Source of the DNA: Limimaricola cinnabarinus
GTDB lineage: Bacteria > Pseudomonadota > Alphaproteobacteria > Rhodobacterales > Rhodobacteraceae
NCBI RefSeq assembly: GCF_002723615.1
Contig: NZ_KZ304960.1
Coordinates: forward strand, 17,681-81,680
DNA length: 64,000 bases
Direction: 5' to 3'
Of this stretch, positions 23,433 through 37,509 are shown one piece after another. The number at the start of each line of letters is the position of its first letter. Positions within the stretch are counted from its first letter, which is position 1. A program made the position numbers and the translations under genes. A model generated the notes under the pieces. It did not search any database and was not told the origin of the DNA. It saw nothing but the letters and a program-made list of their open reading frames with translations.

Positions 23433-25166
23433 ATGCAAAACGCCCGTTTCGACAAGACGAAACTGCCCAGCCGCCACGTGACCGAAGGGCCCGAGCGCGC
23501 GCCGCACCGGAGCTATTTCTATGCCATGGGCATCTCGGAAGAAGAGATCCACCAGCCCTGGGTCGGCGTCGCCACCTGCTGGAACGAGGCCGCGCCCTGC
23601 AACATCGCGCTCAACCGTCAGGCGCAATCGGTCAAGATGGGCGTGAAGAAGGGCGGCGGCACGCCGCGCGAATTCACCACCATCACCGTCACCGACGGCA
23701 TCGCCATGGGCCATGAAGGCATGCGCTCCTCGCTCGCCTCGCGCGACGCGATCGCCGACACCGTCGAGCTGACCATGCGCGGGCATTGCTATGATGCGCT
23801 GGTCGGCCTCGCGGGCTGCGACAAGTCGCTGCCGGGCATGATGATGGCGATGGTCCGGCTCAACGTGCCGTCCGTGTTCATCTATGGCGGCTCGATCCTG
23901 CCGGGCAAGCTCAACGGCAAGGATGTCGTGGTGCAGGACGTGTTCGAAGCGGTGGGCCAGCACGCGGCCGGCAACATGTCGGACGCGGAGCTCGCGGTGC
24001 TCGAACGCGTGGCCTGCCCCTCGGCGGGGGCCTGCGGCGGGCAATACACCGCCAACACCATGGCCTGCGTTTCCGAGGCGGTGGGCCTCGCGCTGCTGAA
24101 CTCCTCGGGCGCGCCCGCGCCCTATGAAAGCCGCGACCAGTATGGCGACTTTTCCGGCCAGGCGGTGATGAACCTGATCGAGAAGAACATCCGCGCCCGT
24201 GACATTGTCACTAGGCAGAGCCTCGAGAACGCGGCGCGGGTCGTCGCCTGCACCGGCGGCTCGACCAATGCGGGCCTGCATCTCCCGGCCATCGCGCATG
24301 AGGCGGGGATCGATTTCGACCTGCTCGACATCTGCAACATCTTCCTCGACACGCCTTATTTCGTGAACCTGCGCCCGGGCGGCGAATACGTCGCCAAGGA
24401 TCTGCACGAGGTGGGCGGCGTGCCGGTCGTCATGAAGGAGCTGCGCAAGGCGGGGCTGCTGCACGAGGACTGCATCACCGCCTCGGGCAAGAGCTTGGGC
24501 GAGGAGCTGGATCTGATCGACCGCGAGGCGGATGGTCGCGTGATCCACACTGTCGCCAACCCGATCACCAAGACCGGCGGCGTCGTCGGCCTCAAGGGCA
24601 ACCTCGCGCCCGACGGCGCGATCGTGAAGGTCGCGGGCATGGCCGCCGAGGATCAGGTCTTCACCGGCCCGGCGCGGGTGTTCGAATGCGAGGAAGAGGC
24701 CTTCGAGGCGGTGCGCCGCCGCGAATACGCCGAGGGCGACGTGATCGTCATCCGCAACGAAGGCCCGGCGGGCGGCCCCGGCATGCGCGAGATGCTTTCG
24801 ACCACGGCAGCACTCTCGGGGCAGGGCATGGGCAAGAAGGTCGCGCTGATCACCGATGGCCGCTTCTCGGGCGCGACCCGCGGCTTCTGCGTCGGCCATG
24901 TCGGCCCCGAGGCCGCGCATGGCGGGCCGATCGCGCTTTTGAAGACCGGTGACATGATCACCATCGACGCCATCCGCGGCGAGATTTCGGTGGATCTGTC
25001 CGACGCCGAACTCGCGGAGCGCAAGGGCGCGTGGAAGGGCGCGCGCACCAATGACTACACCGCCGGCGCGCTGTGGAAATACGCCCAGCTCGTGGGCTCC
25101 GCGCGCAAGGGCGCGGTGACCCATCCCGGCGCCGAGGGCGAAAGCCACGTCTACATGGACCAGTGA
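23433..25166 (+). CDS. ilvD: Dihydroxy-acid dehydratase
   Basis: 577 residues from the ATG at 23433. The iron-sulfur and substrate-site cysteines are in CWNEAAPC (C49, C56), GCDKSLPG (C129) and [10 protein letters not shown]. The C-terminal [18 protein letters not shown] block is intact. It converts dihydroxyisovalerate and dihydroxymethylvalerate to 2-keto acids in valine, isoleucine and leucine synthesis. The next gene starts in its stop (GTGA). The 200-nt region upstream, shared with accD, contains one of the three conserved motif copies but no obvious leader peptide. Confidence 0.97.
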
Positions 25167-25798
25167 GGCCGGGGCTGCCGGGCCTGCTTGGGCGTCTGCC
25201 CCGCCTGCGCCGCGCCGCGCCCAAGGGGCAAGGTGCTGCGCCTTCGCCCCTGCGGCTGGCAGGGGCGGACTGGGCCTGGCGGCCCGAGGCCTGGGCCGGT
25301 GCCGCGCCGGGCGCGGGGCCGCTGCCCGCGGCTTCGGGTGTGGAGCTGTGCGGCGGCGTGCGGCTCTTTCACGACGCCGAATCCCCCGAGCTGCGAATCG
25401 AGCGGCCCGCCATCGGGCCGCAGGGGGCCTGGCCGCTGCGGCTTTGCGCCGGGGGCTTCGACGGCAGCTTTCTGAGCCTCGCCATCGCGCTGCCAGAGGC
25501 AGCGCTGGCCGGGCTGGAGCGGCGGCATCTGTTGGGGATCGACGTCGATCTCGGCCCGGAGGGCGCATCGCGCAGCTTTGCGCGGCTCAACCTGCGGCAG
25601 GGCCCCAACAGCGAAGCGTTGCTGCGCAGCCTGCCCATGACCGAGCCCACCGGCACCGAGTTCGACCTGTGGAGCATCGAGACCGCGCCCGATCGCGTCG
25701 AGACGGGCTGGATCGACCTGATCTTCGAAGCCCCGCTGCCCATGGCGATCGAGATCCGCGATCTGGTGATCGCCCGCAGGCCGCGCGCATCCTTCTGA
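25163..25798 (+). CDS. DUF6478 family protein
   Basis: 211 residues from a GTG at 25163 that overlaps the ilvD TGA. There is a basic, Pro/Leu-rich N-terminus, no signal peptide and no membrane segment. The C-terminal half has the pattern [15 protein letters not shown], then [11 protein letters not shown] and FDLWSIE...[20 protein letters not shown] recognise this as DUF6478, a Rhodobacteraceae family of unknown function. Translational coupling with ilvD is likely, but a role in branched-chain amino-acid synthesis is not shown by the sequence. Confidence 0.75.
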
Positions 25799-25806
25799 GC
25801 CGCGCG

Positions 25807-25895
25807 GCTGACGTCGCGTCCGGAATGACGCGCAGCTGACGTCGCGTCCGGGATGACGCGCAGCTGACGTCGCGTCCGGGGTGACGCGCGCGTCA
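25807..25895 (+). promoter_or_regulatory. Three 28-bp direct repeats ending in a 14-bp palindrome
   Basis: Copies start at 25807, 25835 and 25863, each exactly 28 bp apart and differing at only a few bases. Each unit holds CTGACGTCGCGTCCGG and then TGACGCG, so CGCGTC and GACGCG face each other across 6 nt. The last copy runs into the perfect palindrome TGACGCGCGCGTCA (25882-25895). The block ends 35 nt before the fadH start. Tandem binding sites for a regulator, or iterated RNA hairpins, both fit. Confidence 0.7.
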
Positions 25896-25930
25896 ATCGC
25901 AGCCAGTCTGCCGCCACGAGGGAGGCCCGC

Positions 25931-27946
25931 ATGTCCAGATATCCAAAGCTCTTGTCGCCGATCACGCTGGGGCCGCTGAGCCTGCCCAACCGGGTGCTGA
26001 TGGGCTCGATGCATACCGGGCTCGAGGAGACCGGCGATTGGAATCGCGTCTCCACCTTCTACGCCACGCGCGCGCGCGGCGGCGTCGGGCTGATGGTGAC
26101 GGGCGGCATGGCGCCCAACCGCGAGGGCGGGGTCTATCCCGGCGCGGCGGGACTGTTCACCCAAGACGACATCGCCAACCATGCCCGCGTGACGCGGGCG
26201 GTGCACGAGGCGGGCGGGCGGATCGCAATGCAGATCCTGCATGCCGGGCGCTACGCCTATTCCAAGCACTGCGTCGCCCCTTCGGCGATCCGCGCGCCGA
26301 TCAGCGCCTTCACCCCCAACGCGCTCGACGAGGCGGGGATCGAGAAGCAGATGTCCGACATCGCCACCGCCGCCGCCCGCTCGGTCGAGGCGGGTTATGA
26401 CGGGGTCGAGGTGATGGGCTCGGAGGGCTATTTCCTCAACCAGTTCCTCGCGCCCCGCACCAATCGCCGCGAGGACCGCTGGGGCGGCAGCCTCGAAAAC
26501 CGGATGCGCCTGCCGGTCGAGGTGGTGGCCCGCGTGCGCGCGGCGCTGGGCCCTGACAAGCTGCTGATCTACCGCATCTCGCTTCTCGATCTCGTCTCCG
26601 AGGGGCAGGACTGGTCCGAGATCGTGGCGCTCGCCCATGCCGTGACCGAAGCCGGGGCCGACGTGCTCAACACCGGCATCGGCTGGCACGAGGCGCGGGT
26701 GCCGACCATCGTGACGAGCGTGCCGCGCGCCGCCTTCGCGCATCTGACCGCGAAGCTGCGCGGCGAGGTTTCGGTGCCGGTCATCGCCTCGAACCGGATC
26801 AACACGCCCGAGGTGGCCGAGGAGATCCTGGCCGGGGGGCAGGCCGACATGGTCTCCATGGCGCGGCCCTTCCTCGCCGATCCCGATTTCGTCGCCAAGG
26901 CGGCAAGGGGCGAGGCCGCGCGCATCGCGCCCTGCATCGCCTGCAACCAGGCCTGCCTCGATCACACCTTCTCGGGCAAGCTCTCCTCCTGCCTCGTCAA
27001 CCCGCGCGCCTGCCACGAGACCGAGCTGGTGCTGGAGCCCGTGGCCAGTCCGCGCCGCATCGCGGTGGTGGGGGCGGGGCCCGCGGGCCTCTCGGCGGCG
27101 CTGGCGGCGGCGGAACGCGGCCATGCCGTCACGCTGTTCGAGGCGTCGGGGCGGATCGGCGGACAGCTGCACCACGCCGCCGCGATCCCCGGCAAGGAAG
27201 AGTTCCGCGGATTGCTCGACTGGTTCGAAGCCGAGATCGTCGCGAGCGAAATCGAGCTGCGGCTGGGCGAGACGCCGCAGCCCGAGGCGCTGGCGGGCTT
27301 TGATGCGGTGATCGTCGCCACCGGCGTGCGCCCGCGCGATCCCGCCATTCCGGGGCAGGAGGGGCCGAATGTCATCTCCTATGCCGATCTTCTTTCGGGG
27401 CGGGCCGAGGCCGGGCCGCGCGTCGCCGTGGTCGGCGCGGGCGGCATCGGCTTCGACGTGGCCGAATATCTCGTGACCGGGCACAGCACCACCATCGACC
27501 CGCCCGCCTGGCGCACCGAATGGGGCGTGGCCGATCCTTCGGTCGCGCGCGGCGGCCTCGCCCCCGAGGGGCCGCGCCCGGACCCTGCCGCGCGGCGCGT
27601 CACGCTGTTGCAGCGCAAGGCCGAGAAGCTGGGCAAGCGGCTCGGCAAGACCACCGGCTGGGTGCATCGCGCCGGGCTTCAGATGCGCGCCGTCGAGATG
27701 CTCGGCGGCGTGAGCTACGAGCGCATCGACGCGCAGGGGCTGCATGTCACCACGCCCGAGGGGCCGCGGCTGATCGAGGCAGATACCATCGTGCTCTGCG
27801 CAGGGCAGGAAAGCGAACGGGCACTGGCCGATGCGCTGCTGGCGCAGGGGGTCGAGGCGCATGTGATCGGCGGCGCCGATGTGGCGGCGGAGCTCGACGC
27901 CAAGCGCGCGATCGACCAGGGCACGCGGCTCGCCGCCCGGCTCTAG
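25931..27946 (+). CDS. fadH: NADPH-dependent 2,4-dienoyl-CoA reductase (FadH-like old yellow enzyme family)
   Basis: 671 residues from the ATG at 25931, with GGGAGG 6 nt upstream. Domains in order: an FMN-binding TIM barrel (about 1-330), a 4Fe-4S cluster with C335-x2-C338-x3-C342-x11-C354, then FAD (VVGAGPAGLSAA) and NADPH (VVGAGGIGFDVAE) nucleotide-binding domains. The segment GYDGVEVMGSEGYFLNQFL carries the active-site Tyr region of FadH. It reduces dienoyl-CoA esters so unsaturated fatty acids can enter beta-oxidation. A related trimethylamine-dehydrogenase-like activity is the main alternative. The repeats at 25807-25895 suggest dedicated regulation. Confidence 0.9.
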   Translation: MSRYPKLLSPITLGPLSLPNRVLMGSMHTGLEETGDWNRVSTFYATRARGGVGLMVTGGMAPNREGGVYPGAAGLFTQDDIANHARVTRAVHEAGGRIAMQILHAGRYAYSKHCVAPSAIRAPISAFTPNALDEAGIEKQMSDIATAAARSVEAGYDGVEVMGSEGYFLNQFLAPRTNRREDRWGGSLENRMRLPVEVVARVRAALGPDKLLIYRISLLDLVSEGQDWSEIVALAHAVTEAGADVLNTGIGWHEARVPTIVTSVPRAAFAHLTAKLRGEVSVPVIASNRINTPEVAEEILAGGQADMVSMARPFLADPDFVAKAARGEAARIAPCIACNQACLDHTFSGKLSSCLVNPRACHETELVLEPVASPRRIAVVGAGPAGLSAALAAAERGHAVTLFEASGRIGGQLHHAAAIPGKEEFRGLLDWFEAEIVASEIELRLGETPQPEALAGFDAVIVATGVRPRDPAIPGQEGPNVISYADLLSGRAEAGPRVAVVGAGGIGFDVAEYLVTGHSTTIDPPAWRTEWGVADPSVARGGLAPEGPRPDPAARRVTLLQRKAEKLGKRLGKTTGWVHRAGLQMRAVEMLGGVSYERIDAQGLHVTTPEGPRLIEADTIVLCAGQESERALADALLAQGVEAHVIGGADVAAELDAKRAIDQGTRLAARL

Positions 27947-28066
27947 CTGTTTCCGCCTGCGCATCGGTTGGGGGTCAAACCGCTTTATTGTCAGGGGCAT
28001 GACCCAATCATGCCCGAATCTGCCATCACACAGGGAGCCGACCGAAACGAAGGACGGAGACCGGCC

Positions 28067-28972
28067 ATGGACAGGCTGACAGAGATGGAGGCCTTTGCCA
28101 CCGTGGTGGATCAGGGCGGGTTCACCGATGCGGCCCGCAAGATGGGGATCTCCAAATCCGCCGTCTCGAAACATGTCTCCTCGCTCGAAGCGCGGCTCGG
28201 TGCGCGGCTTTTGAACCGCACCACGCGGCGCGTCAGCCCGACCGAGATCGGGCTGGCCTATTACGACCGGGCGCGCCGCGTCCTGACCGATGCGGGCGAG
28301 GCCGACGCGCTGGTCACCTCGATGCAGTCGGCGCCATCGGGGCTCTTGCGGATCTCGGTCGCGACGGATTTCGGGGTCAATCATCTGAGCCCGGTGCTGG
28401 GCGATTTCCTGCAGGAATTCCCTGACATCACCGTCAACATGGTGCTCAACAACCGCTTCGTGGAGCTGATCTCCGAAGGCTTCGACATGGCGGTGCGCAT
28501 CGGCGAGCTGGAGGACAGCACGCTGCGCGCGCGCAAGCTCACCGAGACTTCCAAGAAGATGATCGCCTCGCCCGCCTATTTCGAACGCTATGGCCGCCCC
28601 GCGCGGATCGACGATCTCAACGAACACAAGCTCTTGCATTACTCCAACGCCTCGAACGGCGCGGTGTGGAAGCTGACCGCGCCCTCGGGCGAAAAGCGGC
28701 AGGTGCGCACCGCCGGTTGGCTGACGGTCAATGACGGGCAGTCATTGCTCAATGCCTGCATCGGCGGGCTCGGCATCGCCTACCTGCCCTCCTTTCTCTA
28801 CGCGGATGCGCTCAAGAAGGGGCTGGTGGAAGAGGCGATCCCGAACCTTCCCACCGAGACGCAGGGCATCTACGCGGTCTATCCGCCGGGCCGCTTCACC
28901 CAGCCCAAGGTGCGCGCCTTCATCGATTTCCTGGTCGAAGCCTTCGCCGAGAAGGGCCCCGACACCTGGTGA
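28067..28972 (+). CDS. LysR family transcriptional regulator
   Basis: 301 residues from the ATG at 28067, which follows ACGGAGA. The winged helix-turn-helix (about residues 3-60) reads FTDAARKMGISKSAVSKHVSSLEARLGARLLNRTTR in consecutive parts, of the CrgA/AaeR-like subgroup, followed by an effector-binding domain with G-F-D-M-A-V-R-I-G-E-L. It lies 120 nt after fadH in the same direction rather than divergently, so it is not the classic LysR-target layout. The target genes are unknown; fadH is a candidate. Confidence 0.92.
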   Translation: MDRLTEMEAFATVVDQGGFTDAARKMGISKSAVSKHVSSLEARLGARLLNRTTRRVSPTEIGLAYYDRARRVLTDAGEADALVTSMQSAPSGLLRISVATDFGVNHLSPVLGDFLQEFPDITVNMVLNNRFVELISEGFDMAVRIGELEDSTLRARKLTETSKKMIASPAYFERYGRPARIDDLNEHKLLHYSNASNGAVWKLTAPSGEKRQVRTAGWLTVNDGQSLLNACIGGLGIAYLPSFLYADALKKGLVEEAIPNLPTETQGIYAVYPPGRFTQPKVRAFIDFLVEAFAEKGPDTW

Positions 28973-37042: not shown

Positions 37043-37509
37043 GCGAGCGCGAAGACGGCTTCGATCTCGACCGCGACACCGAGCGGCAGCGCCGCGACGC
37101 CCACCGCCGAGCGCGCGTGCCGCCCGGCTTCGCCCAGAAGCTCGACCATCAGGTCGGAGGCGCCGTTGATCACCTTGGGCTGCTCGGTGAAACCGGGCGT
37201 CGAGGCGACGAAACCGGTGAGCTTCACCAGCCGCGCGATGCGGCCCAGATCGCCGTCGCAGGCGGCGCGGGCCTGCGCCAGAAGGCTCAGCGCGCAGGCC
37301 TGCGCGGCCTTGGCGCCCTCTTCGGTGGTCATGCCGTCGCCCAGGCGGCCGGTGATCAGCCCGTCCGGCCCGGCGGCGATCTGGCCCGAGACGTAGAGCA
37401 GCCCGTCATGGATGACGAAGGGCTCGTAATTGGCCGCCGGCTTGGGCGCTTCGGGCAGCGCGAGCCCCATTTCAGTCAGCTTGTCGTTGATACCTGCCGC
37501 ATCGATCAT
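37039..37509 (-). CDS. RidA family protein (YjgF/YER057c/UK114)
   Basis: 156 residues from the ATG at 37507-37509, longer than the 125-130 residues of archetypal RidA and in the size range of the COG0251 subgroup with an N-terminal extension (NDKLTEMGLALPEAPKPAAN). Typical blocks are LLYVSGQIAAGPDG, Q-A-C-A-L-S-L-L, R-L-V-K-L-T-G-F-V-A-S and S-A-V-G-V-A-A-L-P. RidA proteins hydrolyse reactive enamine/imine intermediates, but the Arg that defines the active form is not obvious, so activity is uncertain. It is cotranscribed with the gdpD gene. Confidence 0.9.
   Translation of the reverse strand: MIDAAGINDKLTEMGLALPEAPKPAANYEPFVIHDGLLYVSGQIAAGPDGLITGRLGDGMTTEEGAKAAQACALSLLAQARAACDGDLGRIARLVKLTGFVASTPGFTEQPKVINGASDLMVELLGEAGRHARSAVGVAALPLGVAVEIEAVFALA

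Follow-up and report, generated by a model that had tools for sequence, protein, structure and literature searches.

A tandemly tripled candidate operator before fadH in Limimaricola cinnabarinus and a putative MerR-linked beta-oxidation regulon in Rhodobacteraceae

The window analysed here is a 64-kb stretch (64,000 nucleotides) of the Limimaricola cinnabarinus genome. Within it, a 132-bp gap (25799–25930) separates a DUF6478 gene (25073–25798) from fadH (25931–27946), and most of this gap is occupied by a tandem array of three 28-bp units, which start at 25801, 25829 and 25857 and are free of insertions and deletions. The FadH protein gives a full-length match (E 4.1e-226) to the 2,4-dienoyl-CoA reductase 1ps9 and has Oxidored_FMN and Pyr_redox_2 domains, while its best NCBIfam model falls below that model's cut-off. 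As judged from sequence comparison, the name fadH is good, and the gene is a true fadH. A LysR-family regulator gene (28064–28972) lies downstream of fadH on the same strand. The features of the gap are as follows, with box A defined as TGACG-N3-CGTC and box B as TGACG-N4-CGTCA.

25801–25889, forward strand: tandem array, three 28-bp units and the first 5 bases of a fourth
25809–25820, forward strand: box A, copy 1, TGACGTCGCGTC
25826–25833, forward strand: left half of box B, copy 1, TGACGCGC, without a right half (the gap has a single complete box B)
25837–25848, forward strand: box A, copy 2, TGACGTCGCGTC
25854–25861, forward strand: left half of box B, copy 2, TGACGCGC
25865–25876, forward strand: box A, copy 3, TGACGTCGCGTC, aligned to the lone box A of seven relatives in the genus
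25881–25886, forward strand: predicted −35 hexamer GTGACG, based on conservation (other genera usually have GTGACA)
25882–25895, forward strand: box B, perfect palindrome TGACGCGCGCGTCA, over the predicted −35
25904–25909, forward strand: predicted −10 hexamer CAGTCT, 17 bp past the −35, from conservation
25920–25925, forward strand: ribosome-binding site GGGAGG, found by eye
25931–27946, forward strand: fadH, NADPH 2,4-dienoyl-CoA reductase

Each unit is composed of a box A and the left half of a box B, and the order of the array is A-b-A-b-A-B. In total, the gap contains three A boxes (starting at 25809, 25837 and 25865), six TGACG half-sites and one complete box B (25882). The units abut without spacers and differ from one another at one base in CGCGCRGC and at the two bases preceding TGA; at a lag of 28 the array matches itself at 39 of 40 positions. 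Tandem Repeats Finder scored the array at 157 and the runner-up in the window, two 27-bp copies at 37323–37377, at 68. The sequence-only reading had described three near-identical repeats at an exact 28-bp period, a CGCGTC facing a GACGCG across 6 nt in each, and a perfect 14-bp palindrome at the end of the array, and all of these are present in L. cinnabarinus. The facing pair holds in this strain; its relatives conserve something else. An exact 17-mer core of the unit is found at three places in the genome, and the composite in its fadH form (boxes A and B at 17-bp spacing, at most 3 mismatches) at three places in the 3.8 Mb, all of them in this array, with no hits for the reversed-pattern control. 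A dispersed repeat of the REP, BIME or CRISPR type was rejected, since the core and the composite are confined to the array and the units abut.

A consensus scan found no sigma-70 promoter at the fadH gap. In the alignment of the genus, most of boxes A and B is invariant, as is a CANTCT 17 bp past GTGACG/ATGACG, and 59 named loci with a 17-bp spacing from box A to TGAC (among the best 80 listed) have a consensus of roughly TGACGCNGCGTT-N4-GTGACA-N17-CATNCT. The conserved spacing of these hexamers looks like that of a −35/−10 pair, which would put the start of the fadH transcript near 25917, just before the ribosome-binding site. Box A would then be centred near −46, with the two additional copies near −74 and −102, and all three would precede the predicted start.

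The fadH region was matched in all eight Limimaricola genomes compared. The sequence-only reading had proposed counting the repeat in relatives, and the count is one box A and one box B before fadH in each of the other seven genomes (box B of G002 has one base changed), with three A boxes in L. cinnabarinus alone. The ancestral layout is a box A and then a box B over the predicted −35, 17 bp apart from start to start.

The element was then followed in the best 80 named Rhodobacteraceae fadH loci listed. A degenerate pattern of box A plus (G/A)TGAC was found in 76 of these 80 upstream regions and was absent from 4; it occurred in none of 1600 dinucleotide shuffles and none of 80 coding stretches, the pattern having been written after the upstream data were viewed and the controls added later. 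A stricter pattern was found in 49 of the 80 (one of 1600 shuffles, none of 80 coding stretches), and the boxes as derived from the genus, with at most 4 mismatches of 20, in 22 (1/80 in the best of ten shuffles, 0/80 in coding stretches). The upstream DUF6478 gene is detectable at 33 of the 80 loci, and 43 of the 47 others keep the element – on this comparison, it travels with fadH and not with the upstream gene. The two boxes are not equally widespread. The four outer pairs of box B are present in only 6 of 59 aligned loci among these 80, two of the six loci being from Limimaricola, and because box B is seldom retained at fadH outside the genus, boxes A and B may not act there as one unit. 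Within the same 80 upstream regions, a second TGACG-N3-CGT box was found in two (19 bp apart in L132 and 10 bp apart in L144), a second box A by a narrower pattern in none, and a tandem repeat with at least 32 of 40 matches within 200 bp in none.

The repeats had also been suggested to form iterated hairpins in the leader RNA, or to act as the end of the ilvD-DUF6478 transcription unit, and CGCGTC and GACGCG are indeed able to pair in L. cinnabarinus. However, the RNA of the gap folds no better than its shuffles (z +0.74, with 154 of 200 shuffles folding at least as well), and the pairing is not kept in relatives. Over 59 loci among the best 80 listed, Watson-Crick pairs fill 47% of the cells of the CGCGTC/GACGCG hairpin and 77% of those of the box A dyad, or 66% and 92% with G-U pairs allowed. 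The pattern by which these loci were selected itself dictates two of the six hairpin pairs and two of the five box A pairs; at the pairs free of this pattern, the Watson-Crick means are about 0.20 for the hairpin and about 0.62 for the dyad. The conserved promoter geometry places the repeats upstream of the predicted start. Rfam gave no match near its threshold for the gap, no intrinsic terminator (a G+C-rich stem followed by a run of T) was found in 25000–26500, and an end of the upstream unit also sits badly with the many loci that keep the element where no upstream DUF6478 gene is detected. Neither suggestion was borne out, and a role of the repeats in RNA, be it in leader hairpins or in ending the upstream transcript, is very improbable. 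The array looks like a set of DNA operator sites rather than RNA hairpins or a terminator.

A scan of 295 genomes of the family for the fadH-form composite, with at most one mismatch, identified it in 8, of which two belong to the genus; the control had no hits. Five of the composites are before fadH, one is between two tandem MerR genes, one is at an ETF-domain gene and one at a fatty-acid-hydroxylase-family gene. The last two lie upstream of their genes, in G022 of an electron-transfer-flavoprotein gene and in G286 of the hydroxylase-family gene (L036, L037).

In L. cinnabarinus the orthologous MerR pair is on another contig, in a cluster (L183:1773–9798, G000:C21) with all genes on one strand in the order merR2, merR1, a fadE-like gene, a glutathione-transferase-like gene, a fadA-like gene, an ORF with no Pfam match and a fadB-like gene. 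MerR1 and MerR2 both match the MerR_1 and MerR-DNA-bind domains, and since they are 50% identical over 109 residues and have similar helix-turn-helix regions, they may share half-sites. All eight genomes of the genus have both MerR genes, and in all eight, boxes A and B stand between merR2 and merR1 with at most one mismatch each; box A at the merR1 promoter of L. cinnabarinus has one. Scanning these eight genomes for the composite gave 17 hits – 7 before fadH, 6 before merR1 and 4 elsewhere – against 3 for the reversed control; the one hit of the last kind in the L. cinnabarinus genome looks intragenic. A TKACG-N4-CGTMA box precedes merR1 in 8/8 genomes. The TTACGTNNNCGTMA pattern for box B has 11 hits in the genus, and because its control also has 11, the number itself proves nothing; only the position of 8 of the 11 at merR1, one per genome, speaks for that pattern.

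Among 50 fadH-bearing genomes taken from the best 80 loci listed, a strong homologue of MerR1 is encoded in 49 (all at E 2.8e-43 or better). G308, a possibly incomplete metagenome assembly of 2.7 Mb, is the one without, yet its fadH (L113) has the element. The A+B pair, with at most 4 mismatches of 20, is found before merR1 in 45 of these 49 genomes (30 loci and 19 more, drawn from the best 80 fadH loci listed), at a spacing of 16 bp in 43, compared with 3 of 980 mononucleotide shuffles; it is missing at this cut-off in the other 4. fadE follows merR1 in all 30 loci checked, and merR2 precedes it within the locus in 27. The merR1-type composite, with at most 2 mismatches, was also sought in 61 relatives, where it was present in 29: 27 of the 37 genomes from the family and 2 of the 24 from outside it, against 2 control hits. 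The scan returned 30 loci, among them 27 at merR1-fadE; the two hits outside the family are not of this kind and look like chance. Another MerR-like gene (G000:C1:149048) is 32% identical to the query, has no fatty-acid gene nearby by eye, and was dropped. The sequence-only reading had called for a regulator that binds TGACGCG half-sites; the candidate reader here is MerR1, with an A+B pair at its own promoter.

The same merR1-type scan found a site before a FadL-family gene (PF03349, E 1.2e-13) in G005, and a site in G006 is at the same promoter. A fadL of this type is present in all eight Limimaricola genomes. Its upstream region has an N4 box near −100 in six of the eight and an N3 box near −83 in seven, each with at most one mismatch; the N3 box of G003 has two. 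As for the exceptions to the N4 box, G002 has a perfect one elsewhere, near −62, and G004 has none. Any box with at most one mismatch was found in 26 of 800 mononucleotide shuffles. In these upstream regions (L276–L283), the N4 and N3 boxes are in the order opposite to that at fadH.

The support at the level of sequence consists of the repeats, the single copy in relatives, the conservation at fadH, the composite at merR1-fadE and the variant at fadL. The earlier suggestion that the repeats are operator sites controlling fadH is thus backed by comparison, as the element accompanies fadH throughout the family, recurs before merR1-fadE and is altered before fadL. We consider it probable that the array is a form of an operator that controls fadH as a single element throughout Rhodobacteraceae and has been tripled in tandem here, and that through it an autoregulated LiuR-like MerR regulator controls beta-oxidation. 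An economical reading would gather fadL, fadH, merR1-fadE and the fadA and fadB genes downstream of merR1-fadE into one beta-oxidation regulon.

In the proposed mechanism, the operator would be a pair of inverted repeats made from (T/G)ACG...CGT half-sites: box A, with a centre of 3 nt, would adjoin the −35 on its upstream side, and box B, with a centre of 4 nt, would cover it. The likeliest reader would be the LiuR-like MerR1, alone or together with MerR2, its tandem paralogue. Because merR1 has boxes A and B at its own promoter and heads the fadE-fadA-fadB cluster, this regulator would control itself, beta-oxidation, uptake (fadL) and fadH jointly. Its action would most likely be repression, by covering the −35, with release upon the binding of an acyl-CoA, a sign and ligand favoured because LiuR, the nearest MerR regulator on record, is called a MerR-family repressor. 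Repression is not certain: box A is where an activator would be expected to bind, and it is kept at fadH better than box B. In L. cinnabarinus, the regulator would gain further binding sites before fadH from the additional A boxes, and of its targets only fadH would respond differently.

How the operator is read could differ from this in two ways. The two dyad spacings and the two paralogues suggest a divided or mixed reading. In its full form, which we hold to be doubtful, the two MerR paralogues would either form separate dimers for the N3 dyad of box A and the N4 dyad of box B or bind them as a mixed dimer; fadH alone would have been retuned here by multiplying the A part in off-phase 28-bp steps. 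The operator might also be real and be read by some other fatty-acid regulator, encoded elsewhere and also controlling the merR1-fadE genes. Most genera keep box A at fadH without a complete box B, which speaks for such a regulator; but the best conserved composite stands at the promoter of the MerR regulator itself, and box B of merR1, which often reads TTTACGTTAACGTCA, presumably resembles the ILV box of LiuR. We regard this other regulator as unlikely, and a MerR1-read operator remains our preferred reading.

The triplication raises a separate question: the additional copies may increase local binding or may be neutral products of slippage, and the latter would be compatible with the operator reading. 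As 28 bp is 2.67 helical turns, adjacent copies are off-phase and lie on different faces of the DNA, and simple side-by-side cooperativity is therefore not favoured. That only the single element is functional, the tripling having no effect, has in our view a nearly even chance. The units are almost identical and so appear young, the off-phase period is in keeping with slippage, and the lack of any comparable tandem repeat in the 80 fadH upstream regions (the best 80 listed) indicates that copy number is not generally selected. Against this, all three A boxes are intact and the variable bases fall outside them, though three units are too few for significance. The assembly of L. cinnabarinus is a 67-contig draft, and the true copy number could in principle be other than three; but the array is short (89 bp), is inside a contig of 114,585 bases and is made of units that can be told from each other, which makes an assembly error highly improbable.

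Tandem operator arrays in bacterial promoters hold several copies of one binding site before the regulated gene. The array described here is similar in having multiple copies of a single site before one gene, but it is an exact 28-bp duplication, is out of helical phase and is found in one of eight genomes of the genus. LiuR is described as a repressor of the MerR family that governs branched-chain amino acid use (PMC3223726), an ILV box is placed before a merR-like gene in Rhodospirillum rubrum (PMC7238569), and FadR (GntR), PsrA and FadP (both TetR) are given as regulators of fatty-acid degradation (PMC5343134). The putative regulon would share with that of LiuR a MerR-family regulator and a box before both the regulator's own gene and acyl-CoA catabolic genes. 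It differs from it in its putative targets, which among the sites examined are fadH, merR1-fadE and fadL instead of the branched-chain genes of LiuR, in the tandem pairing of the regulator gene, and in the two-part composite operator of N3 and N4 dyads. With the FadR, PsrA and FadP regulons it would have in common the joint control of beta-oxidation genes, but its candidate reader belongs to the MerR family and its half-site reads (T/G)ACG. A search of the literature that covered few subscription papers found no description of this regulator or site in Rhodobacteraceae, and the motif may already be recorded in a 2009 comparative study of these regulons.

For the large and predominantly marine family Rhodobacteraceae, the analysis supplies a candidate regulator of fatty-acid breakdown and a candidate operator, both open to testing. 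L. cinnabarinus offers a natural comparison of one copy with three, in which the number of operators could be related to the response of a single gene.

The TGACGNGCNCGTCA palindrome alone, with at most one mismatch, is found at 28 places per strand in the L. cinnabarinus genome, against 11 for the control. Single boxes were rejected as a guide to the regulon: of the 14 places (out of 28) whose surrounding ORFs were listed, most fall within coding-like sequence and no regulon was visible, and such boxes are thus too noisy. The only other perfect TGACGNGCNCGTCA in L. cinnabarinus (L041:1501–1514, G000:C4:166171–166184) is 44 bp before a 4HBT_2 thioesterase-like gene, which is perhaps a further target.
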